Source: a bacterium (GTDB lineage Bacteria > Ratteibacteria > UBA8468 > B48-G9 > DSTR01). From it: DNA of 38,213 nt. The stretch is taken from NCBI GenBank assembly GCA_029551285.1, contig JAKPFT010000085.1, positions 1 to 38,213 of the forward strand, written 5' to 3'. A model generated the notes under the pieces. The model saw only the letters and a program-made list of their open reading frames with translations, had not been told where the DNA came from and did not search any database. Positions 1 to 38,213 of this stretch are shown here, piece by piece. The position numbers and the translations under genes are program-made. Each line of letters begins with the position of its first letter. Position 1 is the first letter of the stretch.

Positions 1-226
1 CGAAGGCACAGTTACAAGACAAGACGAAAAGCGGCAGCGTTCGGTAAGCGGACCGGGCAATTCCATCCGGGACGCAATACCTTACTCGGCGGTGTCTGAG
101 CTCGCCAGATGGCGAGCGAGTTCGCCGAGCAACCGATTTCGGCGTAGTCCTTGTCTGTGCCGGAGCACCTTGAGTGAGCCAGTTTGTTCCCTTTCTTTTC
201 ATTCCTCTTTTATTCCTTTTTTGACA
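1..226 (+). repeat. Foldback repeat, copy A (left end cut off by contig start)
   Basis: First of four copies of one interspersed repeat, all in the same orientation; the others are at 17253, 17551 and 37957. This copy starts about 37 bases into the element and ends with TTCCTTTTTTGACA (213-226), the reverse complement of the TGTCAAAAAAGGAA that opens the complete copies. The interior folds back on itself: GGCACAG (5-11) pairs with CTGTGCC (155-161), CTCGGCG (85-91) with CGCCGAG (123-129), and GCTCGCC (100-106) with GGCGAGC (111-117) around an AGAT loop. Terminal inverted repeats, foldback and no coding capacity fit a MITE-like non-autonomous element. A conserved structured RNA is the alternative. 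Short open frames inside differ in frame and length between copies and look spurious. Confidence 0.85.
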
Positions 227-13694: not shown

Positions 13695-14609
13695 TTATTT
13701 CATCCCCAGTTGGTTCAATCTTTTTTCAATCTCCTCCCGGGACATAAAACCTGTGTGGCGGAAAACTTCCTGGCCATTTTTGTCAAAGAAAATCTGCACC
13801 GGAATTGACTGAATACCATACCGGGCGCTTAAGACCTGTTCTTTCCGAACATGGACAAAAACCACATTGAGTTTACCTTTGTATTCCTCGCTGATACTTT
13901 TCAGAATTGGCGCCATCATATCGCAGGGGACGCAGCCGTCAGCGCCAAAATCAACCAGAGTGGGCAAGCCACTGGCTCTGGCTTTGTCCACCGGATTATC
14001 CCTGGCCAGCACAGCCTGTTTTTCTGTCCAGGCGCGGTTGACTTCAGGGCTCAATATCCGGCCGAGATTGCCAATGAGTTGCTCTCCGGCTTTCTTTCTC
14101 TTTTCCTGGGTAAGAAAGCCCAGCAGATCAGTCTTAACCTGGTCAAAGGTGGCGCCACCCATCATCGTTTTATTTTCTTCAAAGAACTGTCTGGCTTCGG
14201 TTTCAGTGGCGGTTAACCCTTTTAGAGACTGCTGGAAATAAAGATTTACCAGCTCACGGTTATCCTTGCCCGCAACACCATTGTCCCCAAACTGTTTCCT
14301 GGCCGCCTGGACCAGCAATGTTTCTACGACGACCTGTTCCAGAAGGAAGAAAGCATTCTTCTCCAGTTGCTTCCGGATCTCGGCAGGATAGTTGGCCATT
14401 CTTGCTTTGAGTTCCTGCTCACTCACCTGAAAAGTACCTGACTTAAGAAGAACGCCATCGGGCATTTCCACCACCCGCGCATACTTCAAACATCCTGATG
14501 CTAGGCCCGGATAAAGTTCTTCTACGCTGCCGCTCCTGTTTTCTGCTACCGAGATAATCACTCCGGAGAGACAAAACGCCAGAAGAAAAAATCGCCTCTT
14601 CAATTTCAT
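13695..14609 (-). CDS. Exported SurA-like/thioredoxin fusion protein
   Basis: 304-residue protein with an N-terminal signal or anchor (2-21, hydrophobic FFLLAFCLSGVIIS). Residues about 55-200 are helical and resemble the SurA/PrsA N-terminal chaperone domain (FQVSEQELKARM, LLEQVVVETLLVQAA). Residues about 205-304 form a thioredoxin domain with the active site C226-V-P-C229 (GCVPCDMM) and a cis-proline in SIPVQIF. The PPIase domain is absent. It probably acts on disulfides of unfolded proteins outside the cytoplasm. The C-terminal domain closely resembles the product of the gene just upstream, indicating a tandem duplication. ATG directly follows that gene's TAA. Confidence 0.82.
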   Translation of the reverse strand: MKLKRRFFLLAFCLSGVIISVAENRSGSVEELYPGLASGCLKYARVVEMPDGVLLKSGTFQVSEQELKARMANYPAEIRKQLEKNAFFLLEQVVVETLLVQAARKQFGDNGVAGKDNRELVNLYFQQSLKGLTATETEARQFFEENKTMMGGATFDQVKTDLLGFLTQEKRKKAGEQLIGNLGRILSPEVNRAWTEKQAVLARDNPVDKARASGLPTLVDFGADGCVPCDMMAPILKSISEEYKGKLNVVFVHVRKEQVLSARYGIQSIPVQIFFDKNGQEVFRHTGFMSREEIEKRLNQLGMK

Positions 14610-15101
14610 TTATCCCCCAAGGTCAACACCTAATCTCTTCCACGTCTCCAAAATGTCCTCTCTGGACATGAAACCTTCGTGACGGAAAACCTCCTTTCCG
14701 TCGCGGTCAAAGAAAATCTGAGTGGGAATGACCCGGATACCGTAGCGCTCTCCAGCCTGCCGGTCCTCCCAGACATCAATAATTTCCACTTCCATCTTCC
14801 CGCGGAATTCACGCTTGAGTTCTTCCAGTATGGGAGCCATCATCTTGCAGGGGACACACTGACCGGCTCCTAAATCCACCAGCCTGGGCAGTCTCTTTTC
14901 CGCGGTAGCCCGGTTGTCTTTCCCCGGCTCAGAGACAGTCGCTTCCGGCGCCGGCTCACTGAGTTCTTTTTCCGGCAGGAGAGCGCCTGTTTCCAGCGGT
15001 TCCTGAACGCGTCTGGCCTTCACGACCAGAAGAATGAGCACCACGACTGCCAGAACAACAACAGGTAACAACCTGTTTCGTACCCACTTCTTTTCCGCCA
15101 T
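14610..15101 (-). CDS. Membrane-anchored thioredoxin-like protein
   Basis: 163-residue protein: transmembrane anchor (11-28), a Pro/Glu-rich linker (35-70), and a thioredoxin domain with C82-V-P-C85 (QCVPCKMM) and cis-proline in VIPTQIF. The thioredoxin part faces outside the cytoplasm and is probably reduced through CcdA. It is about half identical by eye to the C-terminal domain of the following gene. AGGAGG lies six bases upstream of ATG at 15101. The first 146 bases overlap, in another frame, the end of the DGC-domain gene. Confidence 0.9.
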   Translation of the reverse strand: MAEKKWVRNRLLPVVVLAVVVLILLVVKARRVQEPLETGALLPEKELSEPAPEATVSEPGKDNRATAEKRLPRLVDLGAGQCVPCKMMAPILEELKREFRGKMEVEIIDVWEDRQAGERYGIRVIPTQIFFDRDGKEVFRHEGFMSREDILETWKRLGVDLGG

Positions 15102-15549: not shown

Positions 15550-16863
15550 CTATCGTTTCGCCGGAACCAGCAAAACAGGAGCCGGTGAAAGCCGTGCCAT
15601 GGCGTGGCTCACGCTGCCAAGGAATACTTCCTGGATAAAGCCACGGCCCTGACTTCCCATTAAAACCATCTGAACATCTCTTTCCCGGATCAGCCGCAAC
15701 AACTCCTGAATCGGTACTCCGAAAGGAATCTCAATCTCAATGCGGGCCTTCCCTTCTCCGGTCAGTTCCTGCTTCATCTTTTCCAGACGGCCACGGTCAA
15801 TTTCGTTGAACTCGTTCAGACGAGGCAAAAGGTGCGGGTCCAGCCGGTTTTTGTCCTGAACGTGGACAAGGGTAACCTGCTTAACTCCATGAGAAACCAT
15901 CTCTTTCAGGTAGGTGAAGGCGTAATCCGCGTTCCGGGAAAAATCCGTGGGAAAAAGGATGTGTTCCTGGAAATGACAACGCTGGCTCTCAATACGGACC
16001 TGGCCTGTTTCCCTGCTCAGAGACAGACGGATAATCAACACCGGCCGGACCGCGTGCTGAATAATTTCGCTGGCTGCCCCGCCTAAAAGGACATCGCCGG
16101 CCAGGGTATGCCCGTGGGAACCAACAATAATCAACGAACAATTGCGCTCCACCGCCAGCCGGTTCACCATTTTGTAGGGAAAGCCCGGAACAACCTCCAC
16201 ACTGGTCACCAATCCCTGCTCCTCCAGGATACGTTTCTGGTCCTGGAGATTCTCTACCAGCAAATCTCTGGCCTGGGCCATACCCAGGGACATCCCTTCC
16301 AGCACACCCACACACTGCACCAGGAGGCATTCTTTCACTCCGAAAACCTTTAAGCCGCCGACACACTGGGTAACAACAAAGGAAGCAGGCGATAAGTCTG
16401 TCGCCACCAGGACTCGCGTCAACATGGTCCCTCCCTGTTTAGCAATCCATGCCTCCAGTTTTTCTTTCAGGGCATCGCGTATCTGTCCGGTTTTGGCCAG
16501 ACGCTGCGCCCACGTGCCTTCCAGACCAGCCGGGTCCGGAAAACTCCAGTGAATTGTTTCCTGGACGCCAGGAATTACCGGGCAGGCAGAACCTTCATCA
16601 CACAGGGTTATTACCGTGTCAAAGGTTCTCCCTTGATTCAGAATCTCCTTGATGCTTTTGGTTTTGTTCTGGGAAATATCCAGACCGACTTGCCGCATCG
16701 CTTCCACCGCCAGAGGGTTCAGCGTTCCCGGCTCCAGTCCGGCGCTGGCCACCTCAAACCTGTCTCCGGCCAGATGGTTTAACAACGCTTCGGCCATCTG
16801 GCTGCGCGCACTGTTGTGAACGCAGACAAATAGCACCCGCTTTTTGGCTGATGACTTGGTCAT
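15550..16863 (-). CDS. ArsC arsenate reductase fused to two UspA domains
   Basis: 437-residue fusion. Residues 1-143 are a thioredoxin-coupled arsenate reductase with low-molecular-weight phosphatase fold: P-loop C14-x5-R20 (CVHNSARS), then C88 and C94 ([11 protein letters not shown]), and WSFPDP. Residues 147-290 and 307-437 are two universal stress protein domains, each with the ATP-binding G-x2-G-x9-G pattern (GSHG..GG and GSQG..GS). ArsC reduces arsenate to arsenite; the Usp parts may bind ATP. The join KQGGTM is read from a GGGAGGG sequence just before an internal ATG at 16425, so separate translation of the double-Usp part is possible. GGAG precedes the ATG at 16863. Confidence 0.9.
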
Positions 16864-16905: not shown

Positions 16906-17139
16906 CTACTTCAACATCTGTTTGATTTCTTCCACAGTAGGAACTTTCCCGGATACTTTCACCTCGCCATCCACGGCCAGGGCCGGCGTCATCATTACCC
17001 CGAAATTCATGATGTCGTTGATGTTGGTCACCTTGACCAGTTCATATTCCAGACCAAGTTCTCTGGCCGCTATCTCCGCATTCTCTGATAACTTCTTGCA
17101 TTTAGGACATCCTGTCCCCAGAATCTGTATCTTTTTCAT
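16906..17139 (-). CDS. Small thioredoxin-like redox protein (CPKC)
   Basis: 77-residue cytosolic protein of the small thioredoxin/glutaredoxin-like (redox-active disulfide protein 2) family. The active site is GTGCPKCKKL near residues 8-17, and MMTPAL carries the cis-proline. It is normal length for the family, which is often found beside arsenic genes. ATG at 17139 has GAGGAGG seven bases upstream; an in-frame extension to 17211 runs into the repeat and is rejected. It is the first gene of the arsenic/thiol operon and could supply electrons to ArsC or CcdA. Confidence 0.88.
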   Translation of the reverse strand: MKKIQILGTGCPKCKKLSENAEIAARELGLEYELVKVTNINDIMNFGVMMTPALAVDGEVKVSGKVPTVEEIKQMLK

Positions 17140-17166
17140 TCTGCACCTCCTCAGTTTTTCTGGTTC

Positions 17167-17511
17167 TGTTAAAATTCTGAGTTGTTTTTTTAGTCTTTTT
17201 TTGTGGCTCAATGGTTCTGCAATTCTTTATCTCCCTCCCCTTCCTCCCACACTGTCAAAAAAGGAAGGGAATAACTGGCGAACGATTTGCGAAGGCACAG
17301 TTACAAGACAAGACGAAAAGCGGCAGCGCTCGGTAAGCGGACCGGATAAGTCCATCCGGGACGCAATACCTTACTCGGCGGTGTCTGAGCTCGCCAGATG
17401 GCGAATGAGTTCGCCGAGCTACCGATTTCGGCGTAGTCCTTGTCTGTGCCGGAGCACTTTGAGTGAGCCAGTTTGTTCCCTTTCTTTTCATTCCTCTTTT
17501 ATTCCTTTTTT
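17167..17511 (+). repeat. Foldback repeat, copy B, with left extension
   Basis: Complete copy. The core runs from TGTCAAAAAAGGAA (17253-17266) to 17511, where TTCCTTTTTT abuts copy C directly. About 86 bases to the left (from GTTAAAA) are also shared with copy D, so the full unit is near 345 bases. Small differences from copy A (GGCGAATGAG for GGCGAGCGAG) shorten the central hairpin, whereas the outer CTCGGCG/CGCCGAG arms are kept. It sits just upstream of the arsenic operon. Confidence 0.85.
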
Positions 17512-17814
17512 GGTTCTGCCTGTCCTTGTCTCTCTCCGCTTCCTCCCCATTGTCAAAAAAGGAAGGGGACAGCTGGCGAACGAATGGCGAAGGCACAGAT
17601 ACAAGACAAGACGAAAAGCGGCAGCGTTCGGTAAGCGGCCCGGACAATTCCATCCGGGACGCAATACCTTACTCGGCGGTGTTTGAGCTCGCCAGATGGC
17701 GAGCGAGTTCGCCGAGCAACCGATTTCGGCGTAGTCCTTGTCTGTGCCGAAGCACCTTCCAGTGAGCCAGTTTGTTCCCTTTCTTTTCATTCCTCTTTCT
17801 TCCATTTTTTGACA
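17512..17814 (+). repeat. Foldback repeat, copy C, head-to-tail with copy B
   Basis: Second unit of a direct tandem pair with a period of about 299 bases, from GGTTCTGCC at 17512. The core runs from TGTCAAAAAAGGAA (17551-17564) to TTTTTTGACA ending at 17814. The core is about 264 bases and restores the strong GCTCGCC/GGCGAGC hairpin seen in copy A. Its right end presents TTGACA (17809-17814) towards the transglutaminase-like gene. Confidence 0.85.
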
Positions 17815-17858
17815 CTACCCCTTATGTTATCATAGTGGAAACCTGCCGGGAAAGAAAA

Positions 17859-18494
17859 ATGACTGTTGAACCTGACTATTTCCGGGCCACAAGGGTCTGC
17901 GACCTTGACCATCCCCGGATTGGCCTCTTAAGCCAGCAACTGGTGGCTTCCTGCTCCACGGAGCGAGAAAAGGCTGTGGCTATCTTCAATTTTGTCCGGG
18001 AGAAAATCCTTTACCGGTTTGACTATCCAGGCACTCTGGCCTCCACCACCCTGGTCAGAAGGAAAGGCAACTGCTTTAACAAGGCCAATCTCCAGATTGC
18101 CCTGTTAAGGCGTGCCGGCATACCTGCAGCCTACGGCGTCTGCCTTATTCACCGGGAAGTCTTCCAGCCTCTGCTGCCAGAAGATATCTACCAGCTGGTC
18201 AGCGAACCCACTGTGCACGTCTACGCCTGCTGCTACTTAAAAAACTCCTGGGTCGCAGCTGACGCCACTATTGACCGGCAGACCTACGAAAATTTTTACC
18301 TCAATCAGCCTGGCTGGTTCTACGCTGACTGGGATGGCACCACCGACTACCTGTTAGCTGAGGCTCACCTGGTGGCCAAACAGGGCCTTTATGCCAACAT
18401 TGACCTTTTCCTGATGCAGCCCCCGCGTTTCTGGACCGACCAGTTGCTTGAGCGTGCCAACCAGCACCTGGAGAAACTGCTCCAGAACCCCTGA
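17859..18494 (+). CDS. Transglutaminase-like cysteine protease-fold protein
   Basis: 211-residue protein of the transglutaminase-like superfamily, often peptidases or amidases in bacteria. The catalytic triad is C72 (KGNCFNKA), H120 (PTVHVYAC) and D135 (VAADATID). No signal peptide, so a cytosolic role is likely; substrate unknown. ATG at 17859 begins the conserved part; the frame extends into the repeat upstream, but those residues are repeat-derived. The ribosome binding site is weak (GGGAAAG). The gene is isolated: the repeat lies upstream and the convergent dockerin-protein gene downstream. Confidence 0.8.
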   Translation: MTVEPDYFRATRVCDLDHPRIGLLSQQLVASCSTEREKAVAIFNFVREKILYRFDYPGTLASTTLVRRKGNCFNKANLQIALLRRAGIPAAYGVCLIHREVFQPLLPEDIYQLVSEPTVHVYACCYLKNSWVAADATIDRQTYENFYLNQPGWFYADWDGTTDYLLAEAHLVAKQGLYANIDLFLMQPPRFWTDQLLERANQHLEKLLQNP

Positions 18495-36154: not shown

Positions 36155-37840
36155 CTACTCTTCTTCCTTTTTCGTCGTGTAGATTACCTCGGCGATGGTG
36201 GTCACCCCATCCAGAACCTTCCTGACGCCATCTTCCCGTAGAGTCTTCATGCCTGAAGCCCGCGCCGCCTCCCGCAGAGCAGTCAGAGAAGGATTTCTGA
36301 CAGTCAGCCTTCTAATCTCTTCGTTCATCACCAAAAGTTCGTAGAGGCCGGTGCGACCGGCAAAACCTGTGCCCTTACAGCGATGGCATCCCTTGCCCCG
36401 GGCATAGCGACCCTCGCTGCCGACAAGCTCGGCCGATAACTCCTTCACTTCTTCAGGCGAAGGTTGGTAGAACTCCTTGCATTGCGGGCAGATGGTGCGC
36501 ACCAGCCGCTGGTTCAACACGCCGATCAGCGAAGCGCTGACCAGGTATGACTCCACGCCCATGTCCAGTAAACGGATGACCGCACCCGGCGCGGTATTGG
36601 TATGCAGGGTAGAAAGAACTAACTGGCCGGTCTGGGCCGCCCGGAAGGCGATGGAAGCCGTTTCCAGGTCCCGGATTTCTCCGATCATGACCACATTGGG
36701 GTCCTGCCGGAGAATGGAACGCAATGCCACGGCAAAAGTCAGGCCTGCCTTGGGGTTAATCTGAGTCTGATCAACATTTTTCAGGTGGTATTCCACCGGG
36801 TCTTCCACGGTCATGATTTTGCGGTGGACACTATCCAGTTCATTCAGGGAGGAGTAAAGCGTGGTGGTTTTGCCGCTGCCGGTAGGCCCGGTTACCAGCA
36901 GCATTCCGTAAGGCTCGTCCAGCAGCATGCGCCAGCGGTGCAGCACCTCCGGCAGAAAACCTAATTGTTCCAGCCCGGAAAGGATATTGGCTTTGTCCAG
37001 CACGCGCAGGGCCACCATCTCCCCGAAAATCGTTGGAAAAGTGGAGACGCGCAAATCCACGTCCCGGCTGGCCAACCTGATTTTGAAATAACCGTCCTGG
37101 GGCACGCGTTTTTCCGCGATATCCAGATTGGCCAGAACCTTGATGTGGGAAACAACAGCGGAATAGAGTTCCAGCGGCGGTGGCGGGAATTCATAAAGAA
37201 GGCCGTTGATGCGAAAGCGTGTTCTCAGCCCTTCCTCTTCAACCTCCAGATGAATATCGGTGGCTCGCACTTCCACGGCCTGGGACACGATTTCTTCCAC
37301 GATTCTGGCCGCCGAGGATTCGGTAATCTCCCTGACCGCCACCGGCGCGACAAACTGCCCCGAACTTCCGGTCCGGGCTACCGGTGAGATGATTTCCAGG
37401 CTGCCCTGGGCAAAAAGGCGGTCCAGAGTTTCCCGGAGGTCACTTTCTTTTGCCAGTCTTGGCTCAATCTTCAAACCGGAAATCTTCTCCAGTTCCTGAA
37501 GTACCTGGGGGTCAGCCGGGTCCACCAGAGCGCAGACCAGGCTACCGCCTCCTTTATGAACAGGCAAAACCTGGTATTTTTTGCAGGTGAACTCTGGCAG
37601 GCAGTTTAACACTTCCCGGGGAACTTCCATCTCTTTCACCTGCAGGCTGGGTATCTTCAGTTCCTTCAGTACAAAAGAATACCAGCGCTCGGCCGACAGC
37701 AGGCCAAACCTGATGAGAAGATAACCAAAAGGAGCGCCTGTTTTTTCCCTTTCCTTGAGCACGACCTGCAGCGACTCCTCTCTCAACCCTTCCTTTGCTT
37801 TCAGAAGTGCCAGGACCTTCTCCAGCCAGTTCTCATCCAT
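36155..37840 (-). CDS. GspE/PilB-type secretion or pilus assembly ATPase
   Basis: 561-residue cytosolic hexameric ATPase. N-terminal MshEN/GspE-N domain (about 1-140), then DIHLE Asp box (195-199), Walker A GPTGSGKTTTL (318-328), Walker B (MIGEIRD, 385-391) and two zinc CxxC pairs (C451/C454, C485/C488). Powers type II secretion or type IV pili; the two cannot be told apart without neighbours, and no other assembly gene is nearby. The start at 37840 lacks a clear ribosome binding site. Repeat copy D lies directly upstream. Confidence 0.93.
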   Translation of the reverse strand: MDENWLEKVLALLKAKEGLREESLQVVLKEREKTGAPFGYLLIRFGLLSAERWYSFVLKELKIPSLQVKEMEVPREVLNCLPEFTCKKYQVLPVHKGGGSLVCALVDPADPQVLQELEKISGLKIEPRLAKESDLRETLDRLFAQGSLEIISPVARTGSSGQFVAPVAVREITESSAARIVEEIVSQAVEVRATDIHLEVEEEGLRTRFRINGLLYEFPPPPLELYSAVVSHIKVLANLDIAEKRVPQDGYFKIRLASRDVDLRVSTFPTIFGEMVALRVLDKANILSGLEQLGFLPEVLHRWRMLLDEPYGMLLVTGPTGSGKTTTLYSSLNELDSVHRKIMTVEDPVEYHLKNVDQTQINPKAGLTFAVALRSILRQDPNVVMIGEIRDLETASIAFRAAQTGQLVLSTLHTNTAPGAVIRLLDMGVESYLVSASLIGVLNQRLVRTICPQCKEFYQPSPEEVKELSAELVGSEGRYARGKGCHRCKGTGFAGRTGLYELLVMNEEIRRLTVRNPSLTALREAARASGMKTLREDGVRKVLDGVTTIAEVIYTTKKEEE

Positions 37841-37862
37841 GCTATGTCCAGGATGTTTCGGA

Positions 37863-38213
37863 GTTCAGTTAAAAACTCCCGGTTGTCTTTTAGTCTTTTC
37901 TTGTGTGTCTCAATGGTTCTGCCTGTGCTTTTGTTTCCCTGCCCTTCCTCCTACACTGTCAAAAAAGGAAGGGGACAGCTGGCGAACGAATGGCGAAGGC
38001 ACAGATACAAGACAAGACGAAAAGCGGCACCGTTCGGTAAGCGAACCGGGCAATTCCATCCGGGACGCAATACCTTACTCGGCGGTGTCTGAGCTCGCCA
38101 CCTGGCGAATGAGTTCGCCGAGCAACCGATTTCGGCGTAGTCCTTGTCTGTGCCGGAGCACCCTGAGTGAGCCAGTTTGTTCCCTTTCTTTTCATTCCTC
38201 TTTTATTCCTTTT
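37863..38213 (+). repeat. Foldback repeat, copy D, cut by contig end
   Basis: The left extension (from GTTAAAA, 37863) matches that of copy B for about 90 bases. The core starts with TGTCAAAAAAGGAA (37957-37970) and runs to the last base, stopping inside the terminal TTCCTTTTTTGACA. The central hairpin loop is CC in place of GA, and the flanking pairing (CCA with TGG) is kept. It lies upstream of the GspE-type gene. It differs from copy A at several bases, so the contig is not closing on itself. Confidence 0.85.

Follow-up and report, generated by a model that had tools for sequence, protein, structure and literature searches.

A probable MITE-like family of modular foldback repeats lies mostly about 22 nt upstream of start codons in a draft bacterial genome

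Results

Organization of the locus

The window, which is the whole 38,213-nt stretch of DNA that we analyzed, constitutes one contig (C97) of a draft genome of 2.72 Mb in 99 contigs, and harbors a complete repeat element that reads along the minus strand in the upstream region of the thioredoxin gene (Table 1). The 14-nt motif TGTCAAAAAAGGAA occurs exactly at 213-226 (minus strand) and at 17253, 17551, and 37957 (plus strand), with a copy carrying two mismatches at 17801-17814 (minus strand), a number of matches that none of 100 shuffled sequences reached. A repeat comparison of the window returned four copies with 79-95% identity, two of them in tandem with an offset of 298 nt, confirming the copy number and the tandem pair of the original prediction; the copies at 1-231 and 37957-38213 are interrupted by the contig ends. 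The borders of the element had been placed at 17167-17814 with the 14-bp repeat as its termini. We corrected the borders to 17162-17819, with the outer ends GGTTCTGTTAAAA (17162) and ...TTTTTTGACACTACC (17819), so that the 14-bp repeat is internal and the outer ends sit farther out. The right arm, described earlier as the reverse complement of the left, is exact in the copy at 1-231 (213-226) but not in the tandem copies, the first of which ends ...TTCCTTTTTTG followed by GTTCTG and the second ...TTCCATTTTTTGACA.

Table 1. Features of the element and its gene neighborhood in the window.
Feature	Coordinates	Strand	Remarks
Complete element: two-unit array with leader	17162-17819	-	outer ends located; 22 nt from the thioredoxin start codon (17137-17139)
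Leader, gene-proximal, ending ...TTAACAGAACC	17162-17252	-	conserved in other arrays, only beside units
Unit 1, proximal to the thioredoxin gene, foldback of ~260 nt	17253-17512	-	
Spacer between tandem units (shortened leader, GGTTCTGCC... type)	17513-17550	-	spacers start alike: GGTTCTGC
Unit 2, distal, foldback	17551-17814	-	folding energy z -6.3 (minus strand), -6.1 (plus strand)
Outer end GGTAGTGTCAAAAA	17806-17819	-	genome matches of this end given in the text
Downstream gene, small thioredoxin-fold protein (PF13192)	16906-17139	-	start codon and Shine-Dalgarno sequence seen
Divergent neighbor, transglutaminase-like protein (PF01841)	17859-18494	+	
Partial element, cut by contig end	1-231	-	outer end GGTAGTGTCAAAAA at 218-231
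Partial element (leader and one unit), cut by contig end	37862-38213	-	21 nt before the PilB-like ATPase start codon
PilB-like ATPase gene	36155-37840		downstream of the element at 37862-38213

Elsewhere in the neighborhood, 15550-16863 (minus strand) encodes a 437-aa protein with an unusual fusion of a low-molecular-weight phosphatase/arsenate-reductase-like domain to two universal-stress-protein domains. Two neighboring genes share 96 nt at 73% identity (13728-13823 and 14652-14747), apparently through tandem duplication of a thioredoxin-like gene.

A genome-wide family of arrays

The most conserved 25-mer of the units occurs 144 times in the genome, 72 times on each strand (control pattern: 0), and the family is therefore far larger than the four copies originally seen, with ~100 insertions and at least 150 repeat units that occupy ~1.7% of the genome. 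There are ~104 arrays, each holding 1-4 units of ~260 nt with a period of 300 nt. In the 96 arrays that we fetched, blast delimits 144 units, with 62 of the arrays being single, 23 double, 8 triple, and 3 quadruple; eight further arrays, two more diverged at 82% and 86% identity, came from a search with the outer end and from contig C92. The true arrays may be longer, since 50 of the 96 stop at the edge of a contig or of the stretch that we fetched, and breaks in this draft assembly fall inside arrays. Several contigs share left ends that lie within a unit (C30/C31/C32, C62/C63, C64/C77, and C14/C18/C78, with the 25-mer at 42, 67, 53, and 213, respectively), which is the signature of an assembly graph broken at a repeat.

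In the direction of the gene, an element consists of GGTAGTGTCAAAAAAGG, n foldback units of ~260 nt separated by spacers of 35-48 nt, and then a leader of ~40-90 nt that ends ...TTTGACAGAACC and is found on the gene side only. The true outer ends are GGTAGTGTCAAAAAAGG and GGTTCTGTCAAAG, which form an imperfect inverted repeat: as in MITEs, there are terminal inverted repeats (GGTAGTGTCAAA and GGTTCTGTCAAA), identical at 10 of 12 positions. The outer end GGTAGTGTCAAAAA has 71 genome matches at ≤1 mismatch (control pattern: 1). We saw no conserved reading frame in the units, in keeping with the original statement that the element encodes nothing conserved, and the short, non-coding, high-copy units are likewise typical of MITEs. 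The distinct ends combined with 1-4 tandem inner modules per array correspond to a BOX-type build. In 447 kb examined, the leader occurred exclusively beside units, and we therefore rejected the idea that it is the general promoter of this genome. A sigma-70 promoter within the leader was rejected as well: TTGACA is conserved, but no properly spaced -10 box was found by eye or by scan. No credible element promoter or terminator acting on the downstream gene was seen. On the opposite strand, at 17809-17836 (plus strand), the outer end provides a perfect TTGACA with CATAGT 16 nt on, a promoter-like arrangement directed towards the divergent transglutaminase gene.

Both strands of the foldback fold far better than shuffled sequences (Table 1). 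In the alignment of units, minor states make up 2.0% at paired sites and 9.9% at unpaired sites; this fivefold lower variation at paired positions indicates that the fold matters. In the clearest hairpin, two-base words match across the stem in 81 copies (58 GC/GC and 23 AT/AT) and mismatch in 14, with a linkage (r2) of ~0.42 at 15-17 bp compared to an average of 0.05 at 11-20 bp. At seven pairs, both positions are altered in two or more copies, which amounts to covariation among copies that are non-independent through gene conversion. The compensatory changes lend support to the earlier impression that some differences preserve the structure. Together, the comparison of units shows that folding, be it of RNA or of single-stranded DNA, is constrained, for a structure taken from the same alignment and among copies that exchange sequence. 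A few units, those with GAGCCCACGGGTAGTGGGC and L220, carry in place of GCTCGCC/GGCGAGC a wholly different hairpin that is still self-complementary.

The 96 complete units are all different, with a mean identity of ~91% (also over 60 units), and they vary in a combinatorial manner, through free recombination of a few alternative words found at roughly a dozen sites. Linkage (r2) falls from 0.37 at ≤2 bp to 0.16 at 3-5 bp, 0.06 at 6-10 bp, 0.05 at 11-20 bp, 0.02 at 21-40 bp, and 0.011 at 41-80 bp, where the sampling floor is 0.010, and 31 of 33 site pairs 6-10 bp apart exhibit all four combinations. The disappearance of linkage beyond ~20-40 bp is as expected of gene conversion among ~150 copies. 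A forward simulation of gene conversion (144 copies, tracts of 60-200 bp) produced a similar decay with lower values at 1-2 bp, the excess in the real units reflecting the multi-base words. We thus rejected exotic short-patch repair as the source of the mosaic, given that ordinary conversion tracts suffice at this family size, and also chimerism of short reads, since the scale of the mosaic is smaller than the usual assembly word length.

Insertion and position relative to genes

The 8-mers immediately outside the two ends of an element resemble each other (identity 0.445; 32 arrays) more than those of permuted partners do (0.287 ± 0.029; reached in 0 of 2000 permutations). This target-duplication signal is specific to length (z = 5.5 at 8 bp, 1.0 at 7 bp, and 1.8 at 9 bp) and is clearest at L129 (8/8) and at L052, L121, and L132 (7/8 each). 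Only about a third of the loci retain a recognizable duplication, which elsewhere was presumably lost by decay or by exchange between copies. The sister species, G001, is the sole genome of the same genus that we compared (77% complete) and contained no copy of the element. Three conserved gene junctions that are occupied in our genome (L097, L120, and L133) are element-free in G001, supplying the empty sites that the original prediction had named as a test, and these empty orthologous junctions argue for an inserted, MITE-like element. At L097 the insertion removed the last codons of the upstream gene, whose stop codon is now the TAG inside GGTAG. Upstream of the thioredoxin gene, the sister carries a different, tightly spaced gene without the element.

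In arrays with a readable leader side and an assignable downstream start, the leader sits ahead of a gene that points the same way. The distance between the end of the element and the start codon is 20-25 nt in 58 of 72 arrays, with a mode of 22; three arrays found after this rule had been set conform to it (22, 23, and 22 nt; counted by eye). For a small parasitic element in bacterial DNA, such spacing is unusually precise. Of 45 loci whose upstream gene runs in the same direction, 34 have the distal end of the element between -5 and +20 nt from the stop codon of that gene, and in six the stop codon is the element's own TAG. Where at least 25 nt of free room was available upstream, 10 of 13 loci, a few of them with uncertain upstream gene calls, still displayed a spacing of 20-25 nt compared to 0.9 expected under uniform placement; at the clearer of these loci (L032, L034, L049, L055, L120, and L132) it is 22-24 nt. 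Survivors confined to gaps would scatter when given room, so this result counts against short gaps alone. The standard deviation of the distance is about equal whether measured to the start codon (1.7) or to the center of the Shine-Dalgarno sequence (1.9), and the two anchors are thus not separable. A scan of 30 downstream proteins revealed no common function: the downstream genes are unrelated housekeeping genes and include those for GyrA, phosphoglycerate kinase, RNase PH, H+-pyrophosphatase, DAHP synthase, cytidylyltransferase, glycosidases, and pilin, which argues against a regulon.

Candidate mobilizing enzymes and known repeat systems

Target duplications of 8 bp are made by IS256, IS6, ISL3, and IS1595 family elements, which our family resembles in that duplication and in ends that begin with GG; here, in contrast, no transposase with these ends was found in the assembly. 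The assembly contains no match to the IS256 (PF00872) or ISL3 (PF01610) transposases, no autonomous transposon with these ends was found in the draft, and a transposase flanked by the same ends, anticipated in the original prediction, was likewise not found there. PF12762 is represented by one relic and PF13610 by a weak integrase-like match, both without element ends. Transposase searches of the assembly therefore left IS256, ISL3, IS6, and IS1595 unsupported as the parent. Contig C92 holds a three-unit array alongside a fragment of an IS1595-family transposase (L219, 1381-1746; a 121-aa frame) without element ends. A single, apparently intact Y1 (RAYT-like) transposase gene lies on contig C43 (L136, 2117-2878) and no associated repeat was found; with this one Y1_Tnp gene and no element ends nearby, a REP/REPIN system mobilized by a RAYT was rejected. 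Among the eight loci that we fetched for matches to the ends outside the known arrays, seven contain units and L225 matches by chance. A pair of end-like motifs 1.87 kb apart at L059 fits a rough chance expectation.

The element is absent from 60 relatives, apart from one weak 31-nt match, and from the viral contigs, plasmids, and phages that we searched; a 19-mer of the unit gave three single matches in named genomes, approximately the chance expectation. Rfam returned nothing at gathering score and one chance match to a miRNA (E = 0.77). The original prediction had offered a structured RNA family as an alternative to a MITE. Absence from the sister and from every collection searched is unlike an ancient RNA family, and neither conservation across species nor a shared function of the associated genes was seen. 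The only other multi-copy DNA found in the fetched stretches of both species consists of paralogs that encode pilin-like proteins, which begin as type IV prepilins do, with a DUF1559 match (L039, L038, and L128; in the sister, for example, L215 and L194).

By its build, the family would work like a BOX element: both have distinct ends, a variable number of tandem inner modules, a fold, and no coding function. Our unit is ~300 nt (boxB is ~45 nt) and precedes a gene at ~22 nt, whereas BOX is found preferentially between convergent genes. Correia elements are shorter, lack tandem units, and insert at TA, whereas our family has an 8-bp duplication and no convincing promoter was seen in it; the likeness lies in the location upstream of genes. 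In BrickBuilt elements we know of no anchoring to start codons. The BOX element of Streptococcus pneumoniae (boxA-boxB(n)-boxC) is a composite, MITE-like element with variable tandem modules, a strong fold, and an uncertain mobilizer, and is over-represented between convergent genes, with gene distances that decay gradually (PMC3049150). BrickBuilt of Porphyromonas gingivalis is a MITE with an internal tandem repeat that is a minisatellite, as opposed to the 300-nt foldback found here (PMC4596501). The Correia elements of Neisseria are MITEs whose mapped sites are predominantly directly upstream of genes, and some carry promoters; the same review describes MITEs as mainly intergenic and, by text search, contains no reference to start codons or Shine-Dalgarno sequences (PMC10969869). 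A literature search for insertion anchored to start codons, with most subscription journals outside its coverage, found nothing relevant.

Discussion

We consider it likely that the element belongs to a lineage-specific, non-autonomous, MITE-like family of modular, BOX-like build, in which inverted outer ends enclose a leader and varying numbers of 300-nt foldback units. The earlier proposal of a MITE mobilized by an unseen transposase is well supported by the outer inverted ends, the 8-bp signal, the empty sites, and the lack of an autonomous copy. That proposal and the structure-preserving changes stood, while the original description had missed where the element truly ends, how it is placed and oriented with respect to genes, how large the family is, and its mosaic. 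In the scheme that we favor, a DDE-type transposase would have inserted the copies in trans, the enzyme now being lost or outside the assembly, and insertion, or the survival of insertions, would be linked to the region where translation of the downstream gene initiates. Later, gene conversion and unequal exchange may have homogenized the units, reshuffled their variants, and altered how many there are per array, with target duplications and leaders decaying in the meantime. With each insertion, the downstream gene would acquire an extensive structured 5' region, and the stop codon of the upstream gene can be shifted or provided by the element, so that expression within operons would probably change.

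Anchoring to the start codon is the novel part of this family, and several causes may be considered. One tentative reading is that transposition targets the translation-initiation region, so that each new copy, in one orientation, ends ~22 nt ahead of a start codon. Targeting of this kind would leave the downstream Shine-Dalgarno sequence intact, even where the upstream gene loses its last codons, and would need to read a feature of the start site, for example the Shine-Dalgarno motif in DNA or the edge of an initiating ribosome. It is also possible, if somewhat doubtful, that a cis-regulatory RNA spread as a MITE and was domesticated into a common 5' leader (an attenuator or a processing site). 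Such a role would explain the fixed orientation, the spacing, and the conserved fold, and is consistent with resolved arrays that precede a gene in one orientation, with double-compensated pairs, and with units that remain ~91% alike while their flanks decay; however, gene conversion alone can account for that similarity, and the unrelated downstream genes, the lack of an Rfam match, and the lack of a credible promoter or terminator acting on the gene speak against it. Rather unlikely, in our opinion, is that selection alone sets the spacing, in that insertions occurred at random in gaps and the survivors in tight operons are those that spared the Shine-Dalgarno sequence and the upstream gene. 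Most upstream stop codons do lie close to the distal end, leaving many short gaps, but the preferred spacing persists where there is room, and several insertions truncate the upstream gene instead, GGTAG supplying its stop codon.

Other origins seem far less probable. In favor of chimeric repeats produced by the short-read assembler, about half of the arrays touch contig or stretch ends; variants nevertheless reassort over 6-10 bp, below the usual assembly word lengths, and the flanks agree with the gene order of the sister species, making an artefact very improbable. Group IIC introns target positions after stop codons with an orientation bias, and our elements resemble them in both respects, but an origin from a retro-element, or from a relative of group II introns, that inserted downstream of stop codons is largely refuted by the absence of a reverse transcriptase (PF00078) from this 93%-complete genome, by the 8-bp duplication, and by the lack of an Rfam intron match. 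Least credible of all are integron-like attC recombination sites between cassette genes: a foldback that follows a stop codon and precedes the next start is reminiscent of them, but the same gene pairs are adjacent in the sister without the site, tandem units have no genes between them, and the 8-bp duplication is again at odds with the idea.

Small mobile repeats of bacteria usually reside where they are least harmful, often after genes. About 100 insertions, most of them just before a Shine-Dalgarno sequence in one orientation and with essential genes included, would represent a new choice of target site; alternatively, they would mean that ~100 genes of this genome have been given a shared 5' region. 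With its many mosaic copies, the family also constitutes a clean natural data set on gene conversion within one bacterial genome.
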